DNA of 64,000 nucleotides from Mesostigma viride (Eukaryota > Streptophyta > Mesostigmatophyceae > Mesostigmatales > Mesostigmataceae), in the NCBI GenBank assembly GCA_009746045.1, contig RPFO01001401.1:1-64000 (forward strand), read 5' to 3'. Below are positions 1 to 42,178 of this stretch, piece by piece (within the stretch, counting starts at the first letter, position 1; each line of letters begins with the position of its first letter). The notes beneath the pieces were generated by a model. It was not told the DNA's origin. It worked only from the letters and a program-made list of their open reading frames with translations, and ran no database searches. The position numbers were made by a program, and so were the translations under genes.

Positions 1-874
1 GGGGGTGCTGGCATGCATAAATACCTAGGGGGTGCTGGCTGGCATAAATACCTAGGGGGTGCTGGCATGCATAAATACCTAGGGGGGGTGCTGGCATGCA
101 TAAATACCTAGGGGGTGCTGGCATGCATAAATACCTAGGGGGGGTGCTGGCATGCATAAATACCTAGGGGGGTGCTGGCATGCATAAATACCTAGGGGGG
201 GTGCTGGCATGCATAAATACCTAGGGGGGGGCTGGCATGCATAAATACCTAGGGGGGTGCTGGCATGCATAAATACCTAGGGGGGTGCTGGCATGCATAA
301 ATACCTAGGGGGTGCTGGCATGCATAAATACCTAGGGGGGGTGCTGGCATGCATAAATACCTAGGGGGGTGCTGGCATGCATAAATACCTAGGGGGGGCT
401 GGCATGCATAAATACCTAGGGGGGTGCTGGCATGCATAAATACCTAGGGGGGGGTGCTGGCATGCATAAATACCTAGGGGGGGCTGGCATGCATAAATAC
501 CTAGGGGGGTGCTGGCATGCATAAATACCTAGGGGGGTGCTGGCATGCATAAATACCTAGGGGGGGGTGCTGGCATGCATAAATACCTAGGGGGGTGCTG
601 GCATGCATAAATACCTGGGGGGTGCTGGCATGCATAAATACCTAGGGGGGGTGCTGGCATGCATAAATACCTAGGGGGGTGCTGGCATGCATAAATACCT
701 AGGGGGGTGCTGGCATGCATAAATACCTAGGGGGGGTGCTGGCATGCATAAATACCTAGGGGGGGCTGGCATGCATAAATACCTAGGGGGGTGCTGGCAG
801 CATAAATACGTCGGGTGGGGTGCTGGCATGCATAAATACCTAGGGGGGTGCTGGCATGCATAAATACCTAGGGG

Positions 875-1076
875 TTCAGCTGCCATTTCGTACCTTTTTT
901 TCTGTTTTTATTTTTTAATGGGGGCCGGCCTGGGGCAGCGGCGGCGGGTGGACGAAAACTGATAGCGTTCCCGTTTGTGCATCCCGTGACCACCGGCCAC
1001 CAAACGGAGGCACGACACCAAGGCAGATCAAGCACCAAAGGAAGCAGCAAGGACGTTGACGTTATTAACCAAGAAT
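875..1076. repeat. Interspersed cassette, copy 1
   Basis: A roughly 200-bp non-satellite block inside the minisatellite. It starts CTGCCATTTCGTACC with a T-rich tract, continues through a CGGCCTGGGGCAGCGGCGG segment, and ends GACGTTATTAACCAAGAATGG directly joined to a new satellite unit. The same block recurs at four more places in this array and, diverged, near 6.1 kb. No protein homology is recognised. I treat it as part of a compound repeat. Confidence 0.85.
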
Positions 1077-2028
1077 GGGGGTGCTGGCATGCATAAATAC
1101 CTAGGGGGGGTGCTGGCATGCCTAAATACATGTGGGGTGCTGGCATGCATAAATACCTAGGGGGGTGCTGGCATGCATAAATACCTAGGGGGGTGCTGGC
1201 ATGCATAAATACGTCGGGTGGGGTGCTGGCATGCATAAATACCTAGGGGGGGTGCTGGCATGCATAAATACCTAGAAGGGGGGGCTGGCATGCATAAATA
1301 CCTAGGGGGGGGTGCTGGCATGCATAAATACCTAGGGGGGGTGCTGGCATGCATAAATACCTAGGGGGGGTGCTGGCATGCATAAATACCTAGGGGGGTG
1401 CTGGCATGCATAAATACCTAGGGGGGGGTGCTGGCATGCATAAATACCTAGGGGGGGTGCTGGCATGCATAAATACCTAGAGGGGGTGCTGGCATGCATA
1501 AATACCGAGGGGGGGTGCTGGCATGCATAAATACCTAGGGGGGGTGCTGGCATGCATAAATACCTAGGGGGGTGCTGGCATGCATAAATACCGAGGGGGG
1601 GTGCTGGCAAGCATAAATACCTAGGGGGGGTGCTGGCATGCATAAATACCTAGGGGGGTGCTGGCATGCATAAATACCTAGGGGGGTGCTGGCATGCATA
1701 AATACCTAGGGGGGGTGCTGGCATGCATAAATACCTAGAGGGGTGCTGGCATGAATAAATACCGAGGGGGGGTGCTGGCATGCATAAATACCGAGGGGGT
1801 GCTGGCATGCATAAATACCGAGGGGGGATGCTGGCATGCATAAATACCTAGGGGGGGGTGCTGGCATGCATAAATACCTAGGGGGGTGCTGGCATGCATA
1901 AATACCTAGGGGGGGTTGTGGCAAGCATAAATACGTCGGGTGGGTGCTGGCATGCATAAATACCTAGGGGGGTGCTGGCATGCATAAATACCTAGGGGGG
2001 GGTGCTGGCATGCATAAATACCTAGGGG

Positions 2029-2227
2029 TTCAGCTGCCATTCGTACCTTTTTTCTGTTTTTATTTTTTAATGGGGGCCGGCCTGGGGCAGCGGCGGCGGT
2101 GGACGAAAACTGATAGCGTTCCCGTTTGTGCATCCCGTGACCACCGGCCACCAAACGGAGGCACGACACCAAGGCAGATCAAGCACCAAAGGAAGCAGCA
2201 AGGACGTTGACGTTATTAACCAAGAAT
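2029..2227. repeat. Interspersed cassette, copy 2
   Basis: Nearly identical to copy 1 over its whole length, with the same entry (TTCAGCTGCCATTCGTACC) and exit (ACCAAGAATGGGG) junctions to the satellite. Confidence 0.85.
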
Positions 2228-2927
2228 GGGGTGCTGGCATGCATAAATACCTAGGGGGGGTGCTGGCATGCATAAATACATGTGGGGGGTGCTGGCATGC
2301 ATAAATACCTAGGGGGGGTGCTGGCATGCATAAATACCTAGGGGGGTGCTGGCATGCATAAATACGTCTGGTGGGGTGCTGGCATGCATAGATACCTAGG
2401 GGGTGCTGGCATGCATAAATACCTAGGGGGGTGCTGGCATGCATAAATACCGAGGGGGGGGGCTGGCATGCATAAATACCTAGGGGGGGGGCTGGCATGC
2501 ATAAATACGTCGGGGGGGTCGCTGGCATGCATAAATACCTAGGGGGGTGCTGGCATGCATAAATACCTAGGGGGGTGCTGGCATGCATAAATACCTAGGG
2601 GGGGGGCTGGCATGCATAAATACCTAGGGGGGGTGCTGGCATGCATAAATACCTAGGGGGGTGCTGGCATGCATAAATACCTAGGGGGGGGGGCTGGCAT
2701 GCATAAATACCGAGGGGGGGGTGCTGGCATGCATAAATACCTAGGGGGGGGTGCTGGCATGCATAAATACCTAGGGGGGGTGCAGGCATGCATAAATACC
2801 GAGGGGGGGGTGCTGGCATGCATAAATACCTAGGGGGGTGCTGGCATGCATAAATACCTAGGGGGGGTGCTGGCATGCATAAATACCTAGGGGGGGGTGC
2901 TGGCATGCATAAATACCTAGGGGGGGG

Positions 2928-3118
2928 GCTGCCATTCGTACCTTTTTTTCTTTTTTTATTTTTAAGCCGGCCTGGGGCAGCGGCGGCGGGTGGACGAAAA
3001 CTGATAGCGTTCCCGTTTGTGCATCCCGTGACCACCGGCCACCAAACGGAGGCACGACACCAAGGCAGATCAAGCACCAAAGGAAGCAGCAAGGACGTTG
3101 ACGTTATTAACCAAGAAT
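2928..3118. repeat. Interspersed cassette, copy 3
   Basis: Same cassette, slightly shorter: the AATGGGGG segment after the T-rich tract is replaced by TTTTTAAGCCGGCC. It shares this shortened form with copies 4 and 5, which suggests the three arose from one duplication lineage. Confidence 0.85.
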
Positions 3119-4013
3119 GGGGGTGCTGGCATGCATAAATACCTAGGGGGGGTGCTGGCATGCATAAATACATGTGGGGGGTGCTGGCATGCATAAATAC
3201 CTAGGGGGTGCTGGCATGCATAAATACCTAGGGGGGTGCTGGCATGCATAAATACCTAGGGGGGTGCTGGCATGCATAAATACCTAGGGGGGGGGGCTGG
3301 CATGCATAAATACCTAGGGGGGGGCTGGCATGCATAAATACCTAGGGGGGGGTGCTGGCATGCATAAATACCGAGGGGGGTGCTGGCATGCATAAATACC
3401 TAGGGGGGGGGCTGGCATGCATAAATACGTCGGGGGGTCGCTGGCATGCATAAATACCTAGGGGGGTGCTGGCATGCATAAATACCTAGGGGGGGTGCTG
3501 GCATGCATAAATACCTAGGGGGGGGGCTGGCATGCATAAATACCTAGGGGGGGTGCTGGCATGCATAAATACCTAGGGGGGTGCTGGCATGCATAAATAC
3601 CTAGGGGGGGGCTGGCATGCATAAATACCGAGGGGGGTGCTGGCATGCATAAATACCGAGGGGGGGTGCTGGCATGCATAAATACCTAGGGGGGGTGCAG
3701 GCATGCATAAATACCGAGGGGGGGGTGCTGGCATGCATAAATACCTAGGGGGGTGCTGGCATGCATAAATACCTAGGGGGGGGGCTGGCATGCATAAATA
3801 CCTAGGGGGGGGGCTGGCATGCATAAATACCTAGGGGGGGTGCTGGCATGCATAAATACCTAGGGGGGTGCTGGCATGCATAAATACCTAGGGGGGGGGC
3901 TGGCATGCATAAATACGTCGGGGGGTCGCTGGCATGCATAAATACCTAGGGGGGTGCTGGCATGCATAAATACCTAGGGGGGGTGCTGGCATGCATAAAT
4001 ACCTAGGGGGGGG

Positions 4014-4204
4014 GCTGCCATTCGTACCTTTTTTTCTTTTTTATTTTTAAGCCGGCCTGGGGCAGCGGCGGCGGGTGGACGAAAACTGATAGCATTCCCG
4101 TTCGTGCATCCCGTGACCACCGGCCACCAAACGGAGGCACGACACCAAGGCAGATCAAGCACCAAAGGAAGCAGCAAGGACGTTGACGTTATTAACCAAG
4201 AATG
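4014..4204. repeat. Interspersed cassette, copy 4
   Basis: Shortened form of the cassette like copy 3, with single-base changes (AGCATTCCCGTTCG). The first satellite unit after it carries CATCAATACC. Confidence 0.85.
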
Positions 4205-4871
4205 GGGGTGCTGGCATGCATCAATACCTAGGGGGGGTGCTGGCATGCATAAATACATGTGGGGGGTGCTGGCATGCATAAATACCTAGGGGGGGGGCTG
4301 GCATGCATAAATACGTCGGGGGGGTCGCTGGCATGCATAAATACGTCGGGTGGTGCTGGCATGCATAAATACCTAGGGGGGGTGCTGGCATGCATAAATA
4401 CCTAGGGGGGGGCTGGCATGCATAAATACCGAGGGGGGGGGCTGGCATGCATAAATACCTAGGGGGGGTGCTGGCATGCATAAATACCTAGGGGGGGGGC
4501 TGGCATGCATAAATACGTCGGGGGGTCGCTGGCATGCATAAATACGTCGGGTGGGGTGCTGGCATGCATAAATACCTAGGGGGGTGCTGGCATGCATAAA
4601 TACCTAGGGGGGGGCTGGCATGCATAAATACCTAGGGGGGTGCTGGCATGCATAAATACCTAGGGGGGTGCTGGCATGCATAAATACCTAGGGGGGGGCT
4701 GGCATGCATAAATACCGAGGGGGGGTGCTGGCATGCATAAATACCTAGGGGGGGTGCAGGCATGCATAAATACCGAGGGGGGGTGCTGGCATGCATAAAT
4801 ACCTAGGGGGGTGCTGGCATGCATAAATACCTAGGGGGGGTGCTGGCATGCATAAATACCTAGGGGGGGGG

Positions 4872-5062
4872 GCTGCCATTCGTACCTTTTTTTTTTTTTT
4901 TATTTTTAAGCCGGCCTGGGCAGCGGCGGCGGGTGGAGGAAAACTGATAGCGTTCCCGTTTGTGCATCCCGTGACCACCGGCCACCAAACGGAGGCACGA
5001 CACCAAGGCGGATCAAGCACCAAAGGAAGCAGCAAGGACGTTGACGTTATTAACCAAGAATG
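4872..5062. repeat. Interspersed cassette, copy 5
   Basis: Shortened cassette with an expanded T tract (16 T, then ATTTTTAAG). It is the last full copy in the array. The satellite downstream of it is richer in ACGTCGG and CGAGG variants. Confidence 0.85.
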
Positions 5063-5631
5063 GGGTGCTGGCATGCATAAATACGTCGGGTGGGGTGCTG
5101 GCATGCATAAATACCTAGGGGGGTCGCTGGCATGCATTAATACGTCGGGTGGGGTGCTGGCATGCATAAATACCGAGGGGGGGTGCTGGCATGCATAAAT
5201 ACATGTGGGGGTGCTGGCATGCATAAATACCGAGGGGGGGGCTGGCATGGATTAATACGTCGGGGGGGTGCTGGCATGCATAAATACCGAGGGGGGTGCT
5301 GGCATGCATAAATACATGTGGGGGGTGCTGGCATGCATAAATACCGAGGGGGGGTGCTGGCATGCATAAATACCTAGGGGGGGTGCTGGCATGCATAAAT
5401 ACCTAGGGTGGGGTGCTGGCATGCATAAATACCGAGGGGGGGTGCTGGCATGCATAAATACCGAGGGGGGGTGCTGGCATGCATAAATACCTAGGGGGGG
5501 TGCTGGCATGCATAATTACCTAGGGTGGGGTGCTGGCATGCATAAATACCGAGGGGGGGTGCTGGCATGCATAAATACCTAGGGGGGGTGCTGGCATGCA
5601 TGAAAAAAGGTGGTGGGGTGCTGGCATGCAT

Positions 5632-6096
5632 AAATACATGTGGTGTGGTGCCGCCATGCATAAATACATGTGCCAGCAAACCTGAGCTGCAAGGGAGCGA
5701 GAAAACCAAGAAAAAAAGCACGCAACACACCACGCGTCGTACCTTTTTATAGATGTTTCTTTTTTTTTATGGGGCCGGCCGGGGGCGGCGGTGCCGGCAA
5801 AAATGAAGCTAGTGACACCGCGCAGATGACGCCGTGAACATGTCGCGTTGTACCGTAGAAGATACGAACAAAAAACAAAACACGAAAAAAGAGAGGCGGA
5901 CCGCATATGACAGGGACGAAAAAAAGTCAGACACACAGCCTGTGTTATCTGGCATGCATAAATACATGTGGTGTGGTGCCGGCATGCATAAATACATGTG
6001 CCAGCAAACCTGAGCTGCAAGGGAGCGAGAAAACCAAGAAAAAAAGCACGCAACACACCACGCGTCGTACCTTTTTATAGATGTTTCTTTTTTTTA
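5632..6096. repeat. Direct duplication at the satellite edge
   Basis: A segment containing CATAAATACATGTGCCAGC, a purine-rich stretch (GCAAGGGAGCGAGAAAACC) and GCGTCGTACC followed by TTTTTATAGATG occurs twice, at about 5632-5770 and 5961-6096. The 190 bp between holds a GGGGCCGGCC-containing segment and AT-rich unique DNA with no recognisable gene. The last degenerate satellite units (CATAAATACATG) begin each copy. Confidence 0.75.
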
Positions 6097-9619: not shown

Positions 9620-9631
9620 AATATATATATG
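9620..9631. repeat. LINE target site duplication, left copy
   Basis: AATATATATATG, repeated exactly at 16689-16700 on the far side of the element. The sequence leading into it (TTTGCATCGTTG) is also found before the same motif in the undisturbed intron copy at 16792-16815, which confirms the empty-site arrangement. Confidence 0.85.
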
Positions 9632-10837
9632 GACGGCAGGCGGTACCACCATTCCGTGGCAGCTTGGCCCAGTTTGCTACCGGCTGGCACACGTTTTCAG
9701 TGAATTTTGGGCTCCAGATTTAAATGCAACGTGCGGTTTGAGGCAGGGGAAAACATGCGTGGACGATAGGAATTATAGCACCGGCGGGCTTCAAAGTGCC
9801 GGACGGCAGGCGGTACCACCATTCCGTGGCAGCTTGGCCCAGTTTGCTACCGGCTGGCACACGTTTTCAGTGAATTTTGGGCTCCAGATTTAAATGCAAC
9901 GTGCGGTTTGAGGCAGGGGAAAACATGCGTGGACGATAGGAATTATAGCACCGGCGGGCTTCAAAGTGCCGGACGGCAGGCGGTACCACCATTCCGTGGC
10001 AGCTTGGCCCAGTTTGCTACCGGCTGGCACACGTTTTCAGTGAATTTTGGGCTCCAGATTTAAATGCAACGTGCGGTTTGAGGCAGGGGAAAACATGCGT
10101 GGACGATAGGAATTATAGCACCGGCGGGCTTCAAAGTGCCGGACGGCAGGCGGTACCACCATTCCGTGGCAGCTTGGCCCAGTTTGCTACCGGCTGGCAC
10201 ACGTTTTCAGTGAATTTTGGGCTCCAGATTTAAATGCAACGTGCGGTTTGAGGCAGGGGAAAACATGCGTGGACGATAGGAATTATAGCACCGGCGGGCT
10301 TCAAAGTGCCGGACGGCAGGCGGTACCACCATTCCGTGGCAGCTTGGCCCAGTTTGCTACCGGCTGGCACACGTTTTCAGTGAATTTTGGGCTCCAGATT
10401 TAAATGCAACGTGCGGTTTGAGGCAGGGGAAAACATGCGTGGACGATAGGAATTATAGCACCGGCGGGCTTCAAAGTGCCGGACGGCAGGCGGTACCACC
10501 ATTCCGTGGCAGCTTGGCCCAGTTTGCTACCGGCTGGCACACGTTTTCAGTGAATTTTGGGCTCCAGATTTAAATGCAACGTGCGGTTTGAGGCAGGGGA
10601 AAACATGCGTGGACGATAGGAATTATAGCACCGGCGGGCTTCAAAGTGCCGGACGGCAGGCGGTACCACCATTCCGTGGCAGCTTGGCCCAGTTTGCTAC
10701 CGGCTGGCACACGTTTTCAGTGAATTTTGGGCTCCAGATTTAAATGCAACGTGCGGTTTGAGGCAGGGGAAAACATGCGTGGACGATAGGAATTATAGCA
10801 CCGGCGGGCTTCAAAGTGCCGGACGGCAGGCGGTACC
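9631..10837 (+). repeat. Seven identical 170-bp tandem monomers (LINE 5' end)
   Basis: Units start GGACGGCAGGCGGTACC at 9631, 9801, 9971, 10141, 10311, 10481 and 10651, and a 17-bp start of an eighth at 10821 runs into the LINE body. By eye the seven copies are identical, while the ORF downstream has multiple frameshifts. Tandem 5' monomers serve as promoters in some LINEs (for example mouse L1), and a promoter role here is inference. Extreme identity implies very recent expansion or homogenisation. Confidence 0.9.
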
Positions 10838-13239: not shown

Positions 13240-13950
13240 GCATGCGCCATCAACCCGACGTCTACCCTGACCGACCTCCCCCACCGCGCGCGTAGCCTTT
13301 TCGCGCAATGTGCAATCGTTTCTCTCCGGCGCATGCACGCCGCTCCGGACGACCCGCTGGGCTTTAAACTGCACATGGTGACCCCCCGCCTGCTCCTCAC
13401 CCCTCTCGGGCGTGGTGTGCGCGGCCTCCAGGGTGCGGTTATTGCCCGTTGCCGACGCTTTCTGCAGGGGGACTGGGAGGGGCTGTTTGGCGTGCCGCCC
13501 CCGCGCACGGCCCGGCTGTCGGGGGAGGTCAACTTCGAGCGGGTGGCCGCCGACGTCATCCGCCTCGTCCGCGAGGGGCAGCTCAGCCGGGCCATGACCC
13601 GCTTGGAAATGGCCAAGCTCGCCCCCGCCAATGCGGCTACCCTGGCGGCCTTGGAGGCTCTTCACCCTGCGGAGCCCGGATTCCAGCTGCCCGTGCCGGA
13701 CCCCCTGCCGGCCCCCCTCCGGCTGGACCGCGACTGCTTCCTGGAGGTGATGCGTGAGGTCCCGCGGGCTTCCTCTACCGGGCCGTCGGGCTGGCGCTAC
13801 GAGCACTTGGAGGTCCTGGTGGGGCATGGGGGCGAGGACATTCTCTTTGACACCCTCATTGACCTGGCGGCTGGTCGCGTTCCTCCCGCTGCGCGCGAGT
13901 GGTTAGCGGGCGCTCGCCTCCTCGCTCTGCTCAAGGGTGTCTTGCCCCCC
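13240..13950 (+). pseudogene. LINE ORF segment 4: N-terminal part of RT region
   Basis: Open in the same frame as segment 3, after the TGA at 13222. It includes MVTPRLLLTPLGRGVRGLQG and, near 13780, the RT-preceding motif SSTGPSGWRYEHLEVLV typical of LINE reverse transcriptases. It ends at a frameshift in an eight-C run at 13945-13952. The RT motif with KVRPIACGEVLRKLVGK resumes immediately after in another frame. Confidence 0.7.
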
Positions 13951-13952
13951 CC

Positions 13953-15713
13953 GAGGGCAAGGTGCGCCCGATCGCCTGCGGTGAGGTGCTCCGCAAGCTC
14001 GTGGGCAAAGTGATCTGCCGCCAAAAGGCGCCCGAGCTCCGTGCCTTTTTCTGCCCGCCCCTCGCAGCGGGTGAGACCTCGGTGGCGGCCCAGCTGGGGG
14101 TGACGACTCCAGGCGGGGCGGATATCCTCATCCATTCGGTGCAGGCCTACCTCGAGGCCCACCCCACCCACGCTGTCGTCAAGGTCGACTGCCACAACGC
14201 GTTCAACAGTCTGTCCCGCGCCAGCATGTTTGCGGCCGTCATGGAGTCCTTCGAGGACTTGTACGCTTGGACAGCCGTGTGCTACGGCCAGCCCGGCCAA
14301 CTGGTTCACATCATGGAGGACGGCACTCGCGGCGGCCTGCTGTCGCGGTCGGGCACCCAGCAAGGGGACCCCCTGGGACCCCTGTACTTTGCCGCCCCCC
14401 TCCAGGGTTGCCTCCAAGCGGTCCATGCTGCCCACCCGGCGGTCGCTATTCAGGCCTACTTGGATGATATCTACCTGCTGGGCCCTGTGCCGGACACCAC
14501 CGCGGCTCTGCTGGCACTGCAGACCGCGGTGGCCGACATCAACCTCCAGTTGACCCTTGCCAAGTGCGCGGTGTACTCGCCCCAAGGTGATTGCTCCGGC
14601 TTTCCGCCCCAGCTCTTGGGCCGGGACGAGCGCCTCCATGGGTTGGATGTCCTCGGCGTTCCGGTTGGCGACCCCGCGTTTGTCATCGATGCTCTGCGGG
14701 CCGCCCTCGAGGCACGCACTGAGGTACTGCCCTTGATTGCGCGCCTTCATGATTCGCAGACCAAGGGTCTGCTTCTGTGGTTTTGCGCTCACCCTCGCGT
14801 CGTTCACTGGCTCCGGGGCGCTCTTCCGTCTCAGGTCCGGCTGGCCGCCGAGGGCCACGACGAACGCATCCAGTCGGCCTTGGCGCAGCTGGTCCCGGGC
14901 CCCGACCTCCCGCCACATGCTATTCGCATTGCCTCCCTGCCTGCACGGATGGGTGGCTGCGGTCTGACTCGTGCCGCCCGGCTGGCCCCAGCAGCCTTTT
15001 TGGGCTCCGTCGCTCAGTCGTGGGCGGAAAGCTGCCGGCTCCTGCCCCTTTTGGCAACGGCAGCGCCTGACCTCCTGGACCCCAGCAGCCCTTTGCCCTT
15101 CGTCACCGCCATCCAGGAGGCCTATGCTGAGATCCAGCAGGCCTGTTCTCCCGTCCGTGCCGCTCAGGCGGTACAGCGCCACCTCCCTCGCGGCACTCCC
15201 TCGGTCGCCTCCGTTCAATCTCCCGCCGCATTCCCTGCTCGCGTCATCGATAAACACCAGAAAACCTACGCGGGTATTCTGCACACGGCTGATTGGATTG
15301 CTCTTTTCGCGGACCTCAACGCCCAGGGACGTGCGTGGCTGTTCTCGCTTTCCTTGCGGAGTGTGGGCTCGGCGTACCTTCGTGCTCTTCCCATGGCCCC
15401 CCCATTCGCCTTGGCTCCCAGCCACTACTCGGTGGCGCTCCGGCACCAGCTATTTGCCCCGCAGCCTCTTGTTCCGGCCGGGCGGCCTTGTGGTAGCTGT
15501 GGGCAGCCGCTGGATCCCACGGGGACTCACTACCTTGCCTGCATGGGGGGCCAACAGAATCAGAATTGGTATTTGTATTTGCACACTGTCCTCCTGACGG
15601 TGGTGCTCGCCATGATTCGGTCGGTTTTCCCCCACGCGAACATCCGGTCCGAGGATGCGGATGGCGCTGCCTTCTATTCCCCCAACCACCGGCCTGACAT
15701 CGTGGTGCTGGAC
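13953..15713 (+). pseudogene. LINE reverse transcriptase, CCHC knuckle and start of endonuclease
   Basis: Encodes RT motif 1 (RPIACGEVLRKL), catalytic motif A (KVDCHNAFNS, near 14187), the motif GTQQGDPLGPLYF near 14355, and the active-site YLDD at 14457-14468. These are the hallmarks of an RNA-dependent DNA polymerase for target-primed reverse transcription. At 15489-15542 is a CX2CX9HX3C knuckle, the CCHC that precedes the restriction-like endonuclease in R2-type elements. At 15690-15698 is the RPD of that endonuclease. The frame is then broken at 15714 by a foldback element. The ORF is otherwise uninterrupted for about 585 codons, so the catalytic core decayed less than the N-terminal half. 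Confidence 0.85.
15709..15713. repeat. Foldback element TSD, left (TGGAC)
   Basis: TGGAC precedes the element at 15709-15713 and is repeated at 16156-16160. Removing the element and one copy rejoins the codons of the endonuclease as VVLDFEGGG without a frame change. Confidence 0.85.
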
Positions 15714-16155
15714 AGTTACGGGCCGAATTAACTTGGGTGCTCGGAAGTGGTTATTCCGGGCAAAATAGTGTGACGGACCGATTTGCCTCAGGCGGCAAAA
15801 GGTTCCGGCACTATTTAACCTAACTAAAACCCGTGCACCTTGGAGGTCAGGGGTTCGAATCCGGACAGCTCCGGCGCATTTAGTGGTGCGTGCTCAGTGG
15901 CCTAGGCGGATGTCTCATATTCAACCCACCCTCCACGAGGCCAGGTTTTAGTTAGGTTAAATAGTGCCGGAACCTTTTGCCGCCTGAGACAAATCGGTCC
16001 GTCACACTATTTTGCCCGGAATAACCACTTCCGAGCACCCAAGTTAATTCGGCCGAATTAACTTGGGTGCTCGGAAGTGGTTATTCCGGGCAAAATAGTG
16101 TGACGGACCGATTTGCCTCAGGCGGCAAAAGGTTCCGGCACTATTTAACCTAACT
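15714..16155. mobile_element. 442-bp foldback element inside the LINE endonuclease
   Basis: Begins AGTTAC and ends CCTAACT, with 5-bp target duplications. The internal order is a truncated left arm, arm A (GGCCGAATTAACTTGGGTGC through TATTTAACCTAACT), a central segment, the inverted arm, then arm A again. Two adjacent inverted arms give a perfect palindrome centred near 16053. The central segment carries a tRNA-type B box (GGTTCGAATCC near 15852). It encodes no protein, so it is non-autonomous. The 5-bp duplication and AGTTA ends do not match a superfamily I can name. A larger relative sits at 36572-37850. Confidence 0.8.
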
Positions 16156-17977: not shown

Positions 17978-18645
17978 ATTCTCACGTCCGGTAAGGAGCG
18001 AGGCCCGATCCGAGATATCTCCACGGCACACCAGTGGCGACTGGACAAAAAGGGCGAGCGGGTCGAGGTGGTAAAGCTCAGGCGTTTTTCATGCTTCAGT
18101 TGTGCGGAGTGCCGAGAGGGCAAGTGGACGACATGCCCAAACGATTGGAGCAGCTCGTCGTGGACTGTAAAACTCCAGGCGAGTAAGTCGCGGAACCCCA
18201 CGCGATATCCGGGAACCCGCCTGAACCACGTTCAAACGGCAAGAAACGAGTTGGGGCGTGGTTTGCAGGAGGGGGAGGCCGTCGCAGTCGCATCTGAGAG
18301 GGGGCACAAGGACCATGTGCCCGACCACCCGTACTGGTTGGCGAAAGTTGTTCGAGTCGCCCACCAACTCGACAAGGATGAGTGTTTAAACAAACATACA
18401 GGGGGGGGGGCGAGGTTTTTAAGAAAGGCAACTGGGTAATGTACGTAAAATACTTCGAGAGGTGCTCCTCCTCCGGATCGGACGCCCGACGCTTCTTCTG
18501 GAACCCAGACGACCGAGAACCCTTAACTGCAATCGTGTGCTACCTGAGCGTCGCAAAGGTCACGAAGGGCAAGTGGGAAGGACATCCGGACAACACGCGA
18601 CAGGGCTGGTTCACAATTGCGAAGAAGGTGGACGCCGAAATTACG
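17978..18645 (+). CDS. Transposase-like protein, exon 3 (frameshifted)
   Basis: Starts ILTSGKERGPIRD in phase 0 and includes a Cys pair (CFSCAEC). From about 18270 it encodes what looks like an SH3/Tudor-like beta domain: GEAVAVASERG, YWLAKVVRV, then FKKGNWVMYVKYFE and RRFFWNPDD. A similar small C-terminal domain with a YW or FW motif is seen in the same protein family. The two halves are in different frames, and the switch falls in a ten-G run at 18401-18410, where one base gained or lost would join them. This may be a sequencing homopolymer error or a true lesion. The exon ends GAAATTACG before GTACGT at 18646. Confidence 0.6.
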
Positions 18646-30233: not shown

Positions 30234-30878
30234 TGTTAGAAATTTGGTTGATTCCTTGGTCGTCAAGACTGCTTGAGACAATTGATAGACGATTTATTCA
30301 TTTCATATTTAGGTTACGGACTGCCACCGTTTGACCGCCAAAGCCATGGTGCGGTTCCCAGGTGGGGACCATTATCGTCCATAGCTGACAGCTAGGACAG
30401 GTAAGGTGAAGGCATCGAGCACAAACATCGTGCCTATATCCACCAAAGGTGGCGGCTATGCGCAAGACAATAACTTAACGACTTAACTTCAGAGTCGTAC
30501 ATTCTAGAAGTCTTGCTAACATGCCAGCGCATTAAGTACGGGGCATCTAGTAACTCGTGTCGGTAGAAATATCCAACACGGAATAGTGGGCCGAGGATGG
30601 TACCGTCGGCACCTACAGTGCGTTAAGTCTTGTGCCGGAAATAGTACAACTTCGGCATACAATAACTTTCGCTGTACGGCACTATTTCTAGTGCTATAAA
30701 CTGTGCCGTAATTATCACGGCGAGCCCTTCCTAACCTATTTAATTATCGGCCTGAAATACGGTAGGCGGGTGCGATTAATAATGACGCAACCCTAATTAG
30801 TCCTCCGTTTACAACATGACGGCCAGAATTAAATATAAACAGGTAGTTGGGCACATAGGGTAAAATATACCCTTGACA
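30234..30878 (-). repeat. TRIM-like element, 5' LTR
   Basis: Second 645-bp copy, followed by TACAC and the satellite. Confidence 0.85.
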
Positions 30879-33030
30879 TACACCGCGCACGCAAGGGGCG
30901 GCTGCACTTACATGTACACACACCACGCACGCAAGGGGCGGCTGCACACACACGTACATACACCGCGCACGCAAGGACCGGCTCCACTCACATGTACATC
31001 CACCGCGCAACCACGGGGCGGCTGCACACACACGTACATACACCGCGCACGCAAGGGGCTGCTGCACACACACTTACACACAAAATGCACGCTTGGGGCG
31101 ACGGCACTCACATGTACATACACCGCGCACGAAAGGGGTGGCTGCACACACACGTACATCCACCGCGCACGCAAGGGGCGGCTGCACACACACATACATA
31201 CACCGCGCACGCTTGGGGCGGCTGCACACACACGTACCTACACCGCGCACGCAAGGGGCGGCTGCACACACACGTACATACACCGCGCACGCAAGGGGCA
31301 ACTGCACACACATGTACATACACCGCGCAACCACGGGGCGGCTGCACACACGCGTACATACACCGCGCACGCAAGGGGCGGCTGCACACATACGTACCTA
31401 CACCGCGCACCCAAGGGGCGACTGCACACACATGTACATCCACCGCGCACGCAAGGGGCAACTGCACACACATGTACACACACCGCGCACGCTTGGGGCA
31501 GCTGCACTCACATGTACACACACCGCGCACGCTTGGGGCGGCTGCACACACACGTACCTACACCGCGCACGCAAGGGGCGGCTGCACACACACTTACACA
31601 CAAAATGCACGCTTGGGGCGACGGCACTCACATGTACACACACCGCGCACGCAAGGGGCGGCTGCACACACACGTACACACACCATGCACGCAATTGCCG
31701 GCATGCACACACACGTACATCCACCGCGCACGCAAGGGGCAACTGCACACACATGTACACACACCGCGCACGCTTGGGGCAGCTGCACTCACATGTACAC
31801 ACACCGCGCACGCTTGGGGCGGCTGCACACACACGTACATACACCGCGCACGCAAGGGGCGGCTGCACACATACGTACCTACACCGCGCACGCAAGGGGC
31901 GGCTGCACACACACGTACATACACCGCGCACGCAAGGACCGGCTCCACTCACATGTACATCCACCGCGCAACCACGGGGCGGCTGCACACACACGTACAT
32001 ACACCGCGCACGCTTGGGGCGGCTGCACACACACTTACACACAAAATGCACGCTTGGGGCGACGGCACTCACATGTACATACACCGCGCACGAAAGGGGT
32101 GGCTGCACACACACGTACATCCACCGCGCACGCAAGGGGCGGCTGCACACACACATACATACACCATGCACGCAAGGGGCGAGTGCAAAAACATGTACAT
32201 ACACCGCGCACGCAAGGGGCAACTGCCCACACATGGACATACACCATGCACGCAAGGGGCGGCTGCACACACATGTACATCCACCGCGCACGCAAGGGGC
32301 GAGTGCACACACACGTACACACACCGCGCACGCAAGGGGCGGCTGCACACACACGTACACACACCATGCACGCAATTGCCGGCATGCACACACACGTACA
32401 TCCACCGCGCACGCAAGGGGCAACTGCACACACATGTACACACACCGCGCACGCTTGGGGCAGCTGCACTCACATGTACACACACCGCGCACGCTTGGGG
32501 CGGCTGCACACACACGTACCTACACCGCGCACGCAAGGGGCCGCTGCACACACACGTACCTACACGGCGCACGCAAAGGGCGGCTGCACACACACTTACA
32601 CACAAAATGCACGCTTGGGGCGACGGCACTCACATGTACACACACCGCGCACGCAAGGGGCGGCTGCACACACACGTACACACACCATGCACGCAATTGC
32701 CGGCATGCACACACACGTACATCCACCGCGCACGCAAGGGGCAACTGCACACACATGTACACACACCGCGCACGCTTGGGGCAGCTGCACTCACATGTAC
32801 ACACACCGCGCACGCTTGGGGCGGCTGCACACACACGTACATACACCGCGCACGCAAGGGGCGGCTGCACACATACGTACCTACACCGCGCACGCAAGGG
32901 GCGGCTGCACACACACGTACATACACCGCGCACGCAAGGACCGGCTCCACTCACATGTACATCCACCGCGCAACCACGGGGCGGCTGCACACACACGTAC
33001 ATACACCGCGCACGCAAGGGGCTGCTGCAC
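30879..33030. repeat. 40-bp CA-rich satellite, segment 3
   Basis: Satellite between the TRIM-like element and the first split-direct-repeat element. A block with TACACACAAAATGCACGCTTGG, GGCGACGGCACTCACATG and GAAAGGGGTGGCTGC monomers recurs within the segment and again in segments 4 and 5, showing block duplication. Confidence 0.97.
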
Positions 33031-35041
33031 TTTGTGAGCTCACGCTCGTTCTATCTATGACCTGCGGAAGTCTCAAAGGGGGAGGGGAGGCCGCAGTAGA
33101 CAGGTCTGACTAGGTAGCCAGTACTAGGGGGGGGGGTACGGTGTTGTGGGGGGGGGGTACCGGGGACGGTACTGTGGACCGGGTCCAATTTGTGTTGTGG
33201 ACCGGGGGCAGTCCTGTGGACCGGGGACGGCGCGGCGCCACTGGCCTGTTGGTCAGTGGGCTGGCGTCCGTCACCCCACCTACGACTAGGTAGACGGTGG
33301 ATACTTAGGGTTGTGGCGGGGCAACAACCACTCCTCTTTGCAGCTGTGTCGACGGCCCACTGACGGCGTGTGTGCACTGCTATGGCGGTGCCGAATGTAA
33401 ATCACAGCTACCGGCCTCCGAATTATTATTCGGGGGCCTGTTTTATTTAAGGTTATGACGGCTGCGCGACGGGGGTCGGCAGCACCCCAATAACTTGCCG
33501 TTCGAAGTGCAGGCGGTAGCTGCCAGTGCCAGATTGTTTTATTTTTGCTGCGTTGTACTCGCCACCCCGGGCTCGCGGGAGGGGTCTGGATAGACGCGGG
33601 AGTGACTCTTGATCGGACAACTAAAGCGGGGCAGTCGTGGTGCTAGGGTGGCAACAGCTACAGGCGGAGGGGGAATACGCCGCAGGCAAGTTCGTTGTGT
33701 ATCGTATGTGCTGGGCCTGGCTAATGAATATCGTCAAGAATAGTGCATGAGCGCGCTATACGAGCATGGGAAGAAGGGGGAATCGAGCCCCCAGGCCAGC
33801 ATAGGAGCGGGGTGGCTGCAGCCCCAGCGCCAGGGGGGGCAGCACCCTAAACAGCCTAACATTTCCTCGTGCCAAGTGAGGCGACAGCGGCCGGCGGCCA
33901 GCGCGGAATGGCGGGGTCGTTGCCGCGTAGTTTAAGCGGGGACGAGTTGTTGGGACTGACGGTGCACAGCGGGGAAGGGGAAGGATGTTAGGGCGGGGCG
34001 ATAGCGGATCCCAGACGCAGCTGCGTCATTGGGGTGCCGGGGGTGCTATGCCTGTGAAGAAAGGTGTACAAAGAATTGCCGAGCCTGCAGGGGTGGCTGC
34101 CGAGGGCAGTGCCCACATGGGTGAGAACCCCCCCGCAGTGGGGGGTCCCTACGGGGATACTTTTGGCTTCCCCCTTGTATTGCCGCCTGGTTAATGAAGC
34201 ACTGGTAGCGGCAGGGGACAAGGGGGGCGACGAGAAGTCTGGGCCATACGACAGCTTGCGGCCAAGTGGCCAGGTAGTGGGTGCGGGATGTTACAAAGCC
34301 CAGGTCCTCTTGACTGGCCCAGGTCCTTATGACTGGTATGATGTTTCGGCCCTTGTTGTGTGGCCTAGTTAGCTTAGAAACTGCAGATTCTTAGGTTAGC
34401 TAATGGCTTGGACGTGTGCCTAACACGTATTTGTAATAAACATGTTTCTCTGGCAGCCCCTCACTCCAATGGAACTAAAGCAGCAATTGGATTTTGTGAG
34501 CTCACGCTCGTTCTATCTATGACCTGCGGAAGTCTCAAAGGGGGAGGGGAGGCCGCAGTAGACAGGTCTGACTAGGTAGCCAGTACTAGGGGGGGGGGTA
34601 CGGTGTTGTGGGGGGGGGGTACCGGGGACGGTACTGTGGACCGGGTCCAATTTGTGTTGTGGACCGGGGGCAGTCCTGTGGACCGGGGACGGCGCGGCGC
34701 CACTGGCCTGTTGGTCAGTGGGCTGGCGTCCGTCACCCCACCTACGACTAGGTAGACGGTGGATACTTAGGGTTGTGGCGGGGCAACAACCACTCCTCTT
34801 TGCAGCTCCCACCCACCCACCCTTGCTGCCAGACGGATGTTACAAAGCCCAGGTCCTCTTGACTGGCCCAGGTCCTTATGACTGGTATGATGTTTCGGCC
34901 CTTGTTGTGTGGCCTAGTTAGCTTAGAAACTGCAGATTCTTAGGTTAGCTAATGGCTTGGACGTGTGCCTAACACGTATTTGTAATAAACATGTTTCTCT
35001 GGCAGCCCCTCACTCCAATGGAACTAAAGCAGCAATTGGAT
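33031..35041 (+). mobile_element. Split-direct-repeat element (PAT/DIRS-like), copy 1
   Basis: 2,011 bp organised A1 (33031-33345), internal (33346-34285), B1 (34286-34492), A2 (34493-34807), 27-bp CCCA-rich spacer, B2 (34835-35041). A1 matches A2 (315 bp) and B1 matches B2 (207 bp). Left flank ...GCTGCTGCAC and right flank ACACACTTAC join into an ordinary satellite monomer, so there is no target duplication. The A1-internal-B1-A2-B2 order without duplication is the signature of tyrosine-recombinase retrotransposons of the PAT/Ngaro type (for example Kangaroo of Volvox). No RT or recombinase is encoded, so it is non-autonomous. The alternative is a tandem dimer of an unrelated element. Confidence 0.65.
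33346..34285. other. Internal region of split-direct-repeat copy 1
   Basis: 940 bp of GC-rich DNA. Short frames (up to 102 codons) have no recognisable domains. A closely related sequence in opposite orientation is at 40923-41866. Confidence 0.6.
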
Positions 35042-36571
35042 ACACACTTACACACAAAATGCACGCTTGGGGCGACGGCACTCACATGTACATACACCGC
35101 GCACGAAAGGGGTGGCTGCACACACACGTACATCCACCGCGCACGCAAGGGGCGGCTGCACACACACATACATACACCATGCACGCAAGGGGCGAGTGCA
35201 AAAACATGTACATACACCGCGCACGCAAGGGGCAACTGCCCACACATGGACATACACCATGCACGCAAGGGGCGGCTGCACACACATGTACATCCACCGC
35301 GCACGCAAGGGGCGAGTGCACACACACGTACACACACCGCGCACGCAAGGGGCGGCTGCACACACACGTACACACACCATGCACGCAATTGCCGGCATGC
35401 ACACACACGTACATCCACCGCGCACGCAAGGGGCAACTGCACACACATGTACACACACCGCGCACGCTTGGGGCAGCTGCACTCACATGTACACACACCG
35501 CGCACGCTTGGGGCGGCTGCACACACACGTACATACACCGCGCACGCAAGGGGCGGCTGCACTTACATGTACACACACCACGCACGCAAGGGGCGGCTGC
35601 ACACACACGTACATACACCGCGCACGCAAGGACCGGCTCCACTCACATGTACATCCACCGCGCAACCACGGGGCGGCTGCACACACACGTACATACACCG
35701 CGCACGCAAGGGGCTGCTGCACACACACTTACACACAAAATGCACGCTTGGGGCGACGGCACTCACATGTACATACACCGCGCACGAAAGGGGTGGCTGC
35801 ACACACACGTACATCCACCGCGCACGCAAGGGGCGGCTGCACACACACATACATACACCATGCACGCAAGGGGCGAGTGCAAAAACATGTACATACACCG
35901 CGCACGCAAGGGGCAACTGCCCACACATGGACATACACCATGCACGCAAGGGGCGGCTGCACACACATGTACATCCACCGCGCACGCAAGGGGCGAGTGC
36001 ACACACACGTACACACACCGCGCACGCTTGGGGCGGCTGCACACACACGTACCTACACCGCGCACGCAAGGGGCGGCTGCACACACACGTACATCCACCG
36101 CGCACGCAAGGGGCAACTGCACACACATGTACACACACCGCGCACGCTTGGGGCAGCTGCACTCACATGTACACACACCGCGCACGCAAGGGCCGGCTGC
36201 ACACACACGTACATCCACCGCGCACGCAAGGGGCAACTGCACACACACGTACATACACCGCGCACGCAAGGGGCGGCTGCACACACACGTACACACACCG
36301 CGCACGCAAGGGGCAACTGCACACACATGTACACACACCGCGCACGCTTGGGGCGGCTGCACACACACGTACCTACACCGCGCACGCAAGGGGCGGCTGC
36401 ACACACACGTACATACACCGCGCACGCAAGGGGCAACTGCACACACATGTACATACACCGCGCAACCACGGGGCGGCTGCACACACACGTACATACACCG
36501 CGCACGCAAGGGGCGGCTGCACACATACGTACCTACACCGCGCACCCAAGGGGCGACTGCACACAGTACAT
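35042..36571. repeat. 40-bp CA-rich satellite, segment 4
   Basis: Resumes in mid-monomer exactly where segment 3 stopped. It contains an internal duplication of about 680 bp (the ACACAAAATGCACGCTTGG block near 35050 recurs near 35735). The last unit is shortened (CACACAGTACAT). Confidence 0.97.
36567..36571. repeat. Foldback array TSD, left (TACAT)
   Basis: TACAT precedes the foldback array and is repeated at 37851-37855, where the satellite resumes with CCACCGCGC. Confidence 0.85.
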
Positions 36572-37850
36572 AGTTACGTTAAATAGTGCCGGAACCTTTT
36601 GCCGCCTGAGGCAAATCGGTCCGTAACACTATTTTGCCCGGAATAACCACTTCCGAGCACCCAAGTTAATTCGGCCGAATTAACTTGGGTGCTCGGAAGT
36701 GGTTATTCCGGGCAAAATAGTGTTACGGACCGATTCTCCTCAGGCGGCAAAAGGTTCCGGCACTATTTAACGTAACTAAAACCTGGCCTCGTGGAGGGGG
36801 GACGAAGAGCCCGAGACATCCGCCTAGGCCGCTGAGCACGCACCACTAAATGCGCCGGAGCTGCCTCAGTGAGGATTCGAACCCCTGACCTCCAAGGTGC
36901 ACAGGTTTTAGTTACGTTAAATAGTGCCGGAACCTTTTGCCGCCTGAGGCAAATCGGTCCGTAACACTATTTTGCCCGGAATAACCACTTCCGAGCACCC
37001 AAGTTAATTCGGCCGAATTAACTTGGGTGCTCGGAAGTGGTTATTCCGGGCAAAATAGTGTTACGGACCGATTTGCCTCAGGCGGCAAAAGGTTCCGGCA
37101 CTATTTAACGTAACTAAAACCTGTGCACCTTGGAGGTCAGGGGTTCGAATCCTCACTGAGGCAGCTCCGGCGCATTTAGTGGTGCGTGCTCAGCGGCCTA
37201 GGCGGATGTCTCGGGCTCTTCGTCCCCCCTCCACGAGGCCAGGTTTTAGTTACGTTAAAAAGTGCCGGAACCTTTTGCCGCCTGAGGCAAATCGGTCCGT
37301 AACACTTTTTTGCCCGGAATAACCACTTCCGAGCACCCAAGTTAATTCGGCCGAATTAACTTGGGTGCTCGGAAGTGGTTATTCCGGGCAAAATAGTGTT
37401 ACGGACCGGCCGAATTAACTTGGGTGCTCGGAAGTGGTTATTCCGGGCAAAATAGTGTTACGGACCGATTTGCCTCAGGCGGCAAAAGGTTCCGGCACTA
37501 TTTAACGTAACTAAAACCTGTGCAACTTGGAGGTCAGGGGTTCGAATCCTCACTGAGGCAGCTCCGGCGCATTTAGTGGTGCGTGCTCAGCGGCCTAGGC
37601 GGATGTCTCGGGCTCTTCGTCCCCCCTCCACGAGGCCAGGTTTTAGTTACGTTAAATAGTGCCGGAACCTTTTGCCGCCTGAGGCAAATCGGTCCGTAAC
37701 ACTATTTTGCCCGGAATAACCACTTCCGAGCACCCAAGTTAATTCGGCCGAATTAACTTGGGTGCTCGGAAGTGGTTATTCCGGGCAAAATAGTGTTACG
37801 GACCGATTTGCCTCAGGCGGCAAAAGGTTCCGGCACTATTTAACGTAACT
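36572..37850. mobile_element. 1,279-bp foldback array of the AGTTA/TAACT family
   Basis: Ends AGTTACGTT and AACGTAACT are inverted. Inside, roughly 103-bp arms alternate in inverted orientation (each pair meeting at the palindrome AATTCGGCCGAATT), separated by three 130-bp central segments: one reversed (about 36777-36909) and two forward (about 37115-37247 and 37514-37646). One arm is truncated at 37409 and immediately followed by a full one. Central segments carry GGTTCGAATCC (tRNA B box) and TCACTGAGGCA, whose CTGAGGC could pair with GCCTCAG in the neighbouring arm. No ORF. The same family interrupts the LINE at 15714. Confidence 0.8.
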
Positions 37851-40166: not shown

Positions 40167-42178
40167 ATCCAATTGCTGCTTTAGTTCCATTGGAGTGAGG
40201 GGCTGCCAGAGAAACATGTTTATTACAAATGCGTGTTCGGCACACGTCCAAGCCATTAGCTAACCTAAGAATCTGCAGTTTCTAAGCTAACTAGGCCACA
40301 CAACAGGGGCCGAAACATCATACCAGTCATAAGGACCTGGGCCAGTCAAGAGGACCTGGGCTTTGTAACATCCTCATGGCAGCAAGGGTGGGTGGGTGGG
40401 AGCTGCAAAGAGGAGTGGTTGTTGCCCCGCCACAACCCTAAGTATCCACCGTCTACCTAGTCGTAGGTGGGGTGGCGGACGCCAGCCCACTGACCAACAG
40501 GCCAGTGGCGCCGCGCCGCCCCCGGTCCACAGGACTGCCCCCGGTCCACAAAACAAATTGGACCCGGTCCGCAGTACCGTCCCCGGTACCCCCCCCCCAC
40601 ATCACCGTACCCCCCCCCCTAGTACTGGCTACCAAGTCAGACCTGTCTACTGCGGCCTCCCCTCCCCCTTTGAGACTTCCGCAGGTCATAGATAGAACGA
40701 GCGTGAGCTCACAAAATCCAATTGCTGCTTTAGTTCCATTGGAGTGAGGGGCTGCCAGAGAAACATGTTTATTACAAATGCGTGTTCGGCACACGTCCAA
40801 GCCATTAGCTAACCTAAGAATCTGCAGTTTCTAAGCTAACTAGGCCACACAACAGGGGCCGAAACATCATACCAGTCATAAGGACCTGGGCCAGTCAAGA
40901 GGACCTGGGCTTTGTAACATCCCGCACCCACTACCTGGCCACTTGGCCGCAAGCTGTCGTATGGCCCAGACTTCGCGTCGCCCCCTTGTCCCCTGCCGCT
41001 ACCAGTGCTTCCATTAAACCAGGCGGCAATACAAGAGGGAAGCCAATCGTATCCCCGTAGGGACCCCCACTATGGGGGGGTTCTCACCCATGTGGGCACT
41101 GCCCTCGGCAGCCGCCCCTGCGGGTTCGGCGATTCTTTGTACACCTTTCTTCACAGGCATAGCACCCCCGGCACCCCAATGACGCAGCTGCGTCTGGGAT
41201 CCGCTATCGCCCCGCCCTAACATCCTTCCCCTTCCCCGCTGTGCACCGCCAGTCCCAACAACTCGTCCCCGCTTAAATTACGCGGCAACGACCCCGCCAT
41301 TCCGCCCTGGCCGCCGGCCGCTGTCGCCTCACTTAATACGAAGAAATGTTAGGCTGTTTAGGATGCTGCCCCCCCTGGCGCTGGGGCTGCAGCCCTCCCG
41401 CTCCTGCGCTGGCCTGGGGGCTCGATTCCCCCTTCTTCCCATGCTCGTATAGCGCGCTCATGCACTATTCTTGACGATATTCATTAGCCAGGCCCAGCGC
41501 ACGTGATCCACAACGAAACTTGCCTGGGACGTAATTCCCCTCCGCCTGTAGCTGTTACCACCCGAGCACCACTATTGCCCCGCCTTAGCTGTCCGATCAA
41601 GAGTCACTCCCGCGTCTATCCAGACCCCTCCCGCGAGCTCGGGGTGGCGAGTACAACGGGCGAGCAAAAATAAAACAATCTGGCACTGGCAGCTACCGCC
41701 CGCACTTCGAATGGCAGTTTCTTGGGGTGCTGCCGACCCCCGTCGCGCAGCCGTCGTAACCTTAAATTATCCAGGCCCCCGAATGATGATTCGGAGGCCG
41801 GTAGCTGTGATTTACATTCGGCACCGCCATAGCAGTGCACACACGCCGTCAGTGGGCCGTCGACACAGCTGCAAAGAGGAGTGGTTGTTGCCCCGCCACA
41901 ACCCTAAGTATCCACCGTCTACCTAGTCGTAGGTGGGGTGGCGGACGCCAGCCCACTGACCAACAGGCCAGTGGCGCCGCGCCGCCCCCGGTCCACAGGA
42001 CTGCCCCGGTCCACAAAACAAATTGGACCCGGTCCGCAGTACCGTCCCCGGTACCCCCCCCCACATCACCGTACCCCCCCCCTAGTACTGGCTACCAAGT
42101 CAGACCTGTCTACTGCGGCCTCCCCTCCCCCTTTGAGACTTCCGCAGGTCATAGATAGAACGAGCGTGAGCTCACAAA
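40167..42178 (-). mobile_element. Split-direct-repeat element, copy 2 (inverted)
   Basis: Same family as 33031-35041 on the opposite strand: B2 40167-40372, CCCA-rich spacer, A2 40401-40715, B1 40716-40922, internal 40923-41866, A1 41867-42178. Left flank GCAGCTGCACACACAC and right flank GTACATACACC fuse exactly to a monomer form seen intact near 38195-38225, so again no target bases were duplicated. It differs from copy 1 at many positions, so the two are separate insertions and the shared layout is a property of the family. Confidence 0.7.
40923..41866. other. Internal region of split-direct-repeat copy 2
   Basis: Diverged relative of 33346-34285 in inverse orientation, without recognisable coding potential. 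Confidence 0.6.

Follow-up and report, generated by a model that had tools for sequence, protein, structure and literature searches.

A 2-kb split-direct-repeat element in satellite DNA of Mesostigma viride, very probably a non-autonomous tyrosine-recombinase retrotransposon

The element at positions 33031-35041 of the window, by which we mean the whole 64,000-nucleotide stretch of Mesostigma viride contig RPFO01001401.1 that was analysed, is very probably a non-autonomous split-direct-repeat retrotransposon of the tyrosine-recombinase (YR) kind. A sequence-only reading of this DNA had proposed as much, and the proposal is upheld by the repeat architecture, 154 genomic occurrences of its central junction, fixed ends, the absence of a consistent target duplication, and a YR-encoding relative with shared ends. 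Few retrotransposons are as poorly understood as the YR group, and the choice of target by their circles is a largely open question. New here are the element's residence in satellite DNA, a signature of the target common to the relative, with A at -2 and T at +8, and a near-invariant crossover point. Among the papers listed in literature searches, no title or abstract opening described a satellite-targeting non-autonomous element of this kind.

All parts of the element lie on the plus strand, in the order A1-internal-B1-A2-spacer-B2. The left terminal repeat A1 (33031-33345) begins with TTTGTGAGC and is 100% identical over 315 bp to A2 (34493-34807), which directly abuts the internal repeat B1 (34286-34492); B1 is in turn 100% identical over 207 bp to the right terminal repeat B2 (34835-35041), and both terminate in TTGGAT. 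The 940 bp internal region (33346-34285) is apparently non-coding, with a longest stop-free run of 99 codons. The order and the lengths of A and B given by the sequence-only reading were exact to the base, but it had left out the 27 bp spacer, X, between A2 and B2 (34808-34834). Its description of an element of about 2 kb without reverse transcriptase (RT) or recombinase also stood, as no RT, RNase H or YR is encoded within 33031-35041. The pentanucleotide TGTAA, a poly(A) signal of green algae, occurs in B1 (34432) and B2 (34981), where it is a possible poly(A) signal; this is weak evidence because the internal region has one further TGTAA and the opposite strand has two. An Rfam scan of the window gave no match at the gathering threshold, and single-strand folding of the element's ends was no greater than that of shuffled sequences. 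The spacer contains CCCACCCACCCACCC, located at 34808-34822 and again at 40386-40400 in the window, and at 910-935 (reverse complement) in the relative described below; on the cDNA strand, the complementary sequence forms a G-quadruplex motif of four runs.

The element is inserted between 33030 and 35042 in a 40-bp satellite array, the left part of which spans 30876-33030 and the right part 35061-36565 (TRF limits). When the flanks are joined at 33030/35042 (80 + 80 bp), the product matches the array at 160 of 160 positions at 35643, 30988 and 22469, the first of these intact target equivalents lying about 600 bp from the insertion. Longer or shorter joins reached at best 137/160, and an equal-length join shifted by one base reached 159/160. 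There was therefore neither target duplication nor base loss at this insertion, and the earlier statement that the flanks rejoin into a normal monomer with no duplicated bases holds at three array positions. That reading had placed the element correctly but overlooked a second copy in the same satellite on the minus strand at 40167-42178, comprising A1 (41867-42178), the internal region (40923-41866), B1 (40716-40922), A2 (40401-40715), X (40374-40400) and B2 (40167-40373), with parts 94-99% identical to the first element. Its rejoined flanks also matched the array at 160/160, and its longer or shorter joins reached at best 123/160. The crossover, the signature and the lack of duplication are readable to the base because the satellite itself supplies exactly matching empty sites. 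Other features of the window include further tandem arrays at 9631-10837, 36571-37805 and 1-5667 (170 bp in seven identical copies, units of 338/397 bp, and a 29 bp array) and an RT-like frame at 13863-15731 on the plus strand (PF00078, E 4.5e-11).

The 440 Mb assembly has 33 matches to the light-harvesting-type family PF00504, as expected of a photosynthetic eukaryote. Searched with the element, it gave 42 matches, of which 40 were full-length with 99-100% identity (40 scored of 417 candidates). A word spanning the B1/A2 junction occurred 154 times genome-wide with up to two mismatches and its reversed control not once, so the architecture seen in the window is not a chance arrangement; an A2-X-B2 word was found at 135 sites, again with none for the reversed control. 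When 71 of the 100 listed A2-X-B2 sites were compared with the 100 listed junctions, all 71 had a B1/A2 junction 250-400 bp upstream, and 29 of the 100 listed junctions were without a partner among the A2-X-B2 matches listed. The first three partnerless loci inspected (L040, L041 and L042, with two of the 29 junctions in L041) turned out to hold more diverged copies of this same kind of element. Within copies, A1 and A2, and likewise B1 and B2, were compared in 12 copies, and in 11 of these they differed by 0-2 substitutions each and at most three gap columns; in the twelfth, L041, the repeats diverge more. If both repeats of a pair are made from one template, such near-identity suggests that the insertions are recent.

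A different repeat order in other copies would have spoken against the sequence-only reading; at the loci examined, other orders appeared only where further units of the element had been added in tandem. On C1906 two complete copies adjoin without a gap, L041 carries an additional A-X-B unit, and the order A-INT-B-A-INT-B-A-X-B occurs twice on C943, the second judged from boundaries and spacing. Junctions of the relative recur 4891-4898 bp apart on C224, C251, C415, C515 and C635, and its locus L039 includes an A-INT-B unit without A2-X-B2, together with a 510 bp A-X-B element standing alone in TGAA repeats. These forms fit recombination at B/A junctions or circles with one junction, and unequal homologous exchange is an alternative. 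On C195, A starts at 18411 and 25584 precede the next A start by 4139 and 4137 bp as against the usual 1462, which points to a longer variant or a nested insertion. Coding sequence upstream of a B/A junction made C943 a candidate helper; it was rejected, the coding sequence being a Copia-like element (91211-99683) within A1 of a tandem copy, with the order Gag knuckle, integrase, RT, RNase H as read by eye without a profile. The same sequence is present in a stretch 53 kb away.

Flanks were compared at 42 loci, made up of L001-L008, 30 short-flank pairs, L040-L042 and the second window copy; the full-length copy at C2045:208249 was left out. At all 42, A1 begins with TTTGTGAGC and B2 terminates in TTGGAT, with a single point change, in A1 of L004. 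Dropping four loci whose flanks marked them as the same insertion left 38 independent sites; L004 is among these and is absent from the 37-site set used for some counts. The satellite register was unshifted at 20 of 24 sites and off by -1, -1, -2 and +2 bp at the other four, two of which adjoin a left monomer in poor agreement with the consensus (28-29 of 40 positions). Left and right flanks matched above shuffled pairs at 3 of 37 sites for k = 6, at 3 of 37 for k = 8 and, marginally, at 4 of 37 for k = 4. The three k = 8 sites (L006, L040 and C1457) are by eye insertions into microsatellites, where matches are expected because of the periodicity; the k = 4 case outside repeats is C113, with 4 bp (GCAT) on both sides. 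There is thus no consistent target-site duplication in the copies examined, and of the duplications that would have counted against the sequence-only reading, the 4 bp match at C113 is the one instance at a non-repetitive site.

The position of the crossover hardly varies either. Exact A starts numbered 282 when the first six bases were ignored and 281 when the element's own six were kept; subtracting the 154 junctions from the 282 leaves roughly 128 A1 copies, and it is to these that the comparison applies. In the encoding relative, 12 of 12 sites keep TTGGTG as the first six bases. The crossover is therefore at one point, since 281/282 and 12/12 starts keep the element's own bases where a two-strand exchange of a core of about 6 bp would leave those of the target. 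One reading of this invariance is single-strand exchange; another is directed repair.

Genome searches for longer relatives with the element's repeats, a check proposed along with the original interpretation, led to L039 on C1657, a YR-encoding element of about 5.3 kb with the same architecture, similar ends and the same C-rich spacer. L039 and the window element are 84.6% identical over 39 bp at the B1/A2 junction and 89% identical over 28 bp across the A-end and X, and CCCACCCACCCACCC directly follows A2 in both. A second, distinct A-X-B element, some 510 bp long and next to the YR-encoding one in L039, matches the window element at 94% over 35 bp (A-end/X) and 81% over 54 bp (B). The relative's recombinase is recognised by profile (PF00589, E 2.7e-8). 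Upstream of it lies an 842-residue frame in which an RT motif (TIDDL) and RNase H motifs (DAS..E..DSS..NPAD) can be read by eye, so that the longer relatives called for were found for YR by profile and for RT and RNase H by motif. Pfam and PDB sequence searches recognised no RT in this frame, and structure prediction gave a mean pLDDT of 32.8. In L026 an RT/RNase H-like frame and the YR are fused in one frame, with about 45 residues from the last RNase H motif to the YR. No methyltransferase was matched by Pfam in the relative, and L026 leaves no room for one between RNase H and YR. B1 directly precedes A2-X-B2 in all 40 copies of the relative scored (of 1081 candidates), and in at least 10 of the 40 the B1/A2 junction has a YR match some 500 bp before it (150 of 824 YR candidates scored). 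Ngaro elements would likewise have their internal repeats downstream of YR and no methyltransferase, but the RT of the relative is a putative one, assigned by motif. The earlier assignment to a PAT/Ngaro-type element stands at the level of the split-direct-repeat YR group, as either PAT or Ngaro, the relative lacking the methyltransferase expected of PAT. One degenerate word retrieved 455 junctions of both families together, 36 of the 100 listed being of the window type.

The relative may not be the helper of the window element, because the flanks are not satellite and the A and B bodies differ, only the ends and X being alignable. By eye, no resemblance to the 40-bp satellite was seen in any of the relative's 34 distinct right flanks, and its insertion sites are mostly unique A+T-rich DNA or microsatellites. 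Between RNase H and recombinase, two diverged families carry the motif GDVHPNPGP or GIHPNPGP, which we take to be 2A-like (L026:1-2058 and L028:1-2031, plus strand; L039:2850-5375, minus strand) and which could split RT-RNase H from the recombinase; a profile search gave a putative match to a viral chain. A recombinase class with frames of 756/734 aa is clustered on C1480, C1579 (2.62-2.73 Mb), C1391 and C2 (3.85-3.91 Mb) and is perhaps centromeric. Three of the four strongest integrase matches are on C2011, possibly a bacterial contaminant.

The satellite sequence around the insertion junction reads TGCAC followed, across the junction, by ACACACGT. Among the 38 independent sites, 25 are within the 40-bp satellite (24 of 37 by a stricter criterion) and 13 outside it. 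The genome has 13,507 occurrences of a 27-base word of the satellite, from which the satellite is roughly estimated, at the 270 bp of array per word seen in the window, to occupy about 3.7 Mb or about 0.8% of the genome; two-thirds of the examined sites in so small a fraction make a clear case of safe-haven residence. Young copies are over-represented because the loci were taken from the best-scoring matches, and of the diverged loci L040-L042 none is in the 40-bp satellite, L040 and L042 being in GT-rich or CA-rich microsatellites.

Left flanks end in GYRY at 33 of 37 sites, against a background of 15.6% in these flanks (1310 of 8399 positions). Sites of the window family have A at -2 in 32 of 38 cases and T at +8 in 29 of 38; the satellite sites are not 25 independent choices, because they comprise only 16 distinct words, and outside the satellite the counts are 10/13 and 8/13. 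The encoding relative shares both preferences, with A at -2 and T at +8 each at 10 of 12 sites (of 19 left-hand stretches, 7 yielded no A1); another count of T at +8 gave 15 of 20, or 14 of 19 distinct sites, C267 and C884 having one identical right flank. T at +8, predicted beforehand, was then found at 13 of 15 fresh relative sites (p 3.6e-5, background T 0.34), the set being 20 further flanks with five duplicates dropped. The 13 non-satellite and 12 relative sites, pooled, show dyad symmetry centred 3-4 bp to the right of the junction (13.7, against at most 10.1 in 300 shifted controls), some of the 25 being periodic repeats; an offset of 3 scores nearly the same as one of 4 (13.4 and 13.7), and the A-2/T+8 pair alone points to 3. 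The dyad may be the trace of a recombinase dimer on inverted half-sites, in which case A-2 and T+8 would bracket a central region of the target of about 6 bp. Being common to the encoding relative, the A-2/T+8 signature is a candidate recombinase footprint.

In the mechanism that we favour, the element would depend on a reverse transcriptase acting in trans to copy an RNA spanning A1 to B2. The B1/A2 junction, where both complete ends are adjacent, could template restored termini and a circle with a B2/A1 junction, and a YR likewise supplied in trans would recombine that circle junction with chromosomal DNA. The RNA, the circle and mobilisation in trans by some helper are inferred. More tentatively, and with less chance of being right than wrong, the element and its relative may integrate by single-strand YR exchange that is then completed by replication. 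The donor could be a single-stranded circle, and the recombinase could be adapted to satellite DNA of alternating purines and pyrimidines, with the satellite serving as a safe haven.

The absence of duplication, the fixed junction and the tandem units are also compatible with a non-autonomous YR DNA transposon resembling Cryptons, which would excise and reinsert as a circle with no RNA stage and acquire split repeats through tandem circle insertions; that Pfam recognises no RT in the relative fits this too. We consider it improbable, however, given the RT and RNase H motifs upstream of YR in the longer relative's frame and the constant A1-INT-B1-A2-X-B2 order in 40 of 42 matches, which random tandem circles would not be expected to produce. 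Split direct repeats are, moreover, documented for YR retrotransposons (PMC8969392, PMC4157794). The order in 40 of 42 matches, together with the exact empty sites, weighs likewise against a derivative of an LTR retrotransposon with LTR-like repeats rearranged by recombination, to which we give almost no credence: the two direct-repeat pairs and the Copia-like element elsewhere in the genome would suit such an origin, but the window element has no terminal LTR pair and no target duplication, nor is a duplication consistent among other copies. Relatives with LTR structure and integrase, which the sequence-only reading had named as evidence against itself, did not appear at the loci examined.

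A Helitron-type rolling-circle element, or a satellite segment amplified along with its array, would account for the missing duplication and for residence in the array. Helitron ends are TC and CTRR, unlike the TTTGTGAGC and TTGGAT found here; 13 of the 38 independent insertions are in DNA other than the 40-bp satellite, and ends and target bases are common to a YR-encoding family, which makes this origin very unlikely.

The window element is a new member of a kind already known, for this group includes other non-autonomous elements, SIRE and TOC1 among them. TOC1, of the volvocine PAT group, is a non-autonomous element of about 5.7 kb. SIRE of Trypanosoma cruzi is a short non-autonomous derivative of the split-direct-repeat YR retrotransposon VIPER, consisting of A2 and B2 on either side of some 30 bp of SIRE-specific sequence (PMC6681497), so the earlier judgement that such elements are rarely described has to be tempered. 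SIRE resembles the A2-X(27 bp)-B2 portion of the window element, and the 510 bp A-X-B element in TGAA repeats recalls it; the common form here, in contrast, keeps A1, the 940 bp internal region and B1, and belongs to another host group, the likeness being drawn on architecture. TOC3 and Kangaroo of volvocine green algae are PAT elements with split direct repeats (PMC3266345, PMC4157794). At about 2 kb the window element is set beside these and TOC1 by description only, and in the relative, unlike in Kangaroo, recombinase and RT-like frame point the same way, with no methyltransferase found.

PAT-like DIRS families have been curated in algae, among them Chlamydomonas relatives and Ectocarpus, and the available parts of those descriptions include no non-autonomous satellite-dwelling family (PMC8226300, PMC12477816). 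DIRS1 also integrates by YR without target duplication, as the window element does, but it has inverted repeats and recombines at an identical 3 bp sequence (PMC3266345), whereas the repeats here are direct and there is no identical core. Ngaro elements have the order A1-[ORFs]-B1A2B2 and encode RT, RNase H and YR without a methyltransferase, and a habitat preference is already known for them, in virophages (PMC8547959, PMC4157794). The likeness to Ngaro is again architectural, and the target habitat is another one, satellite DNA.
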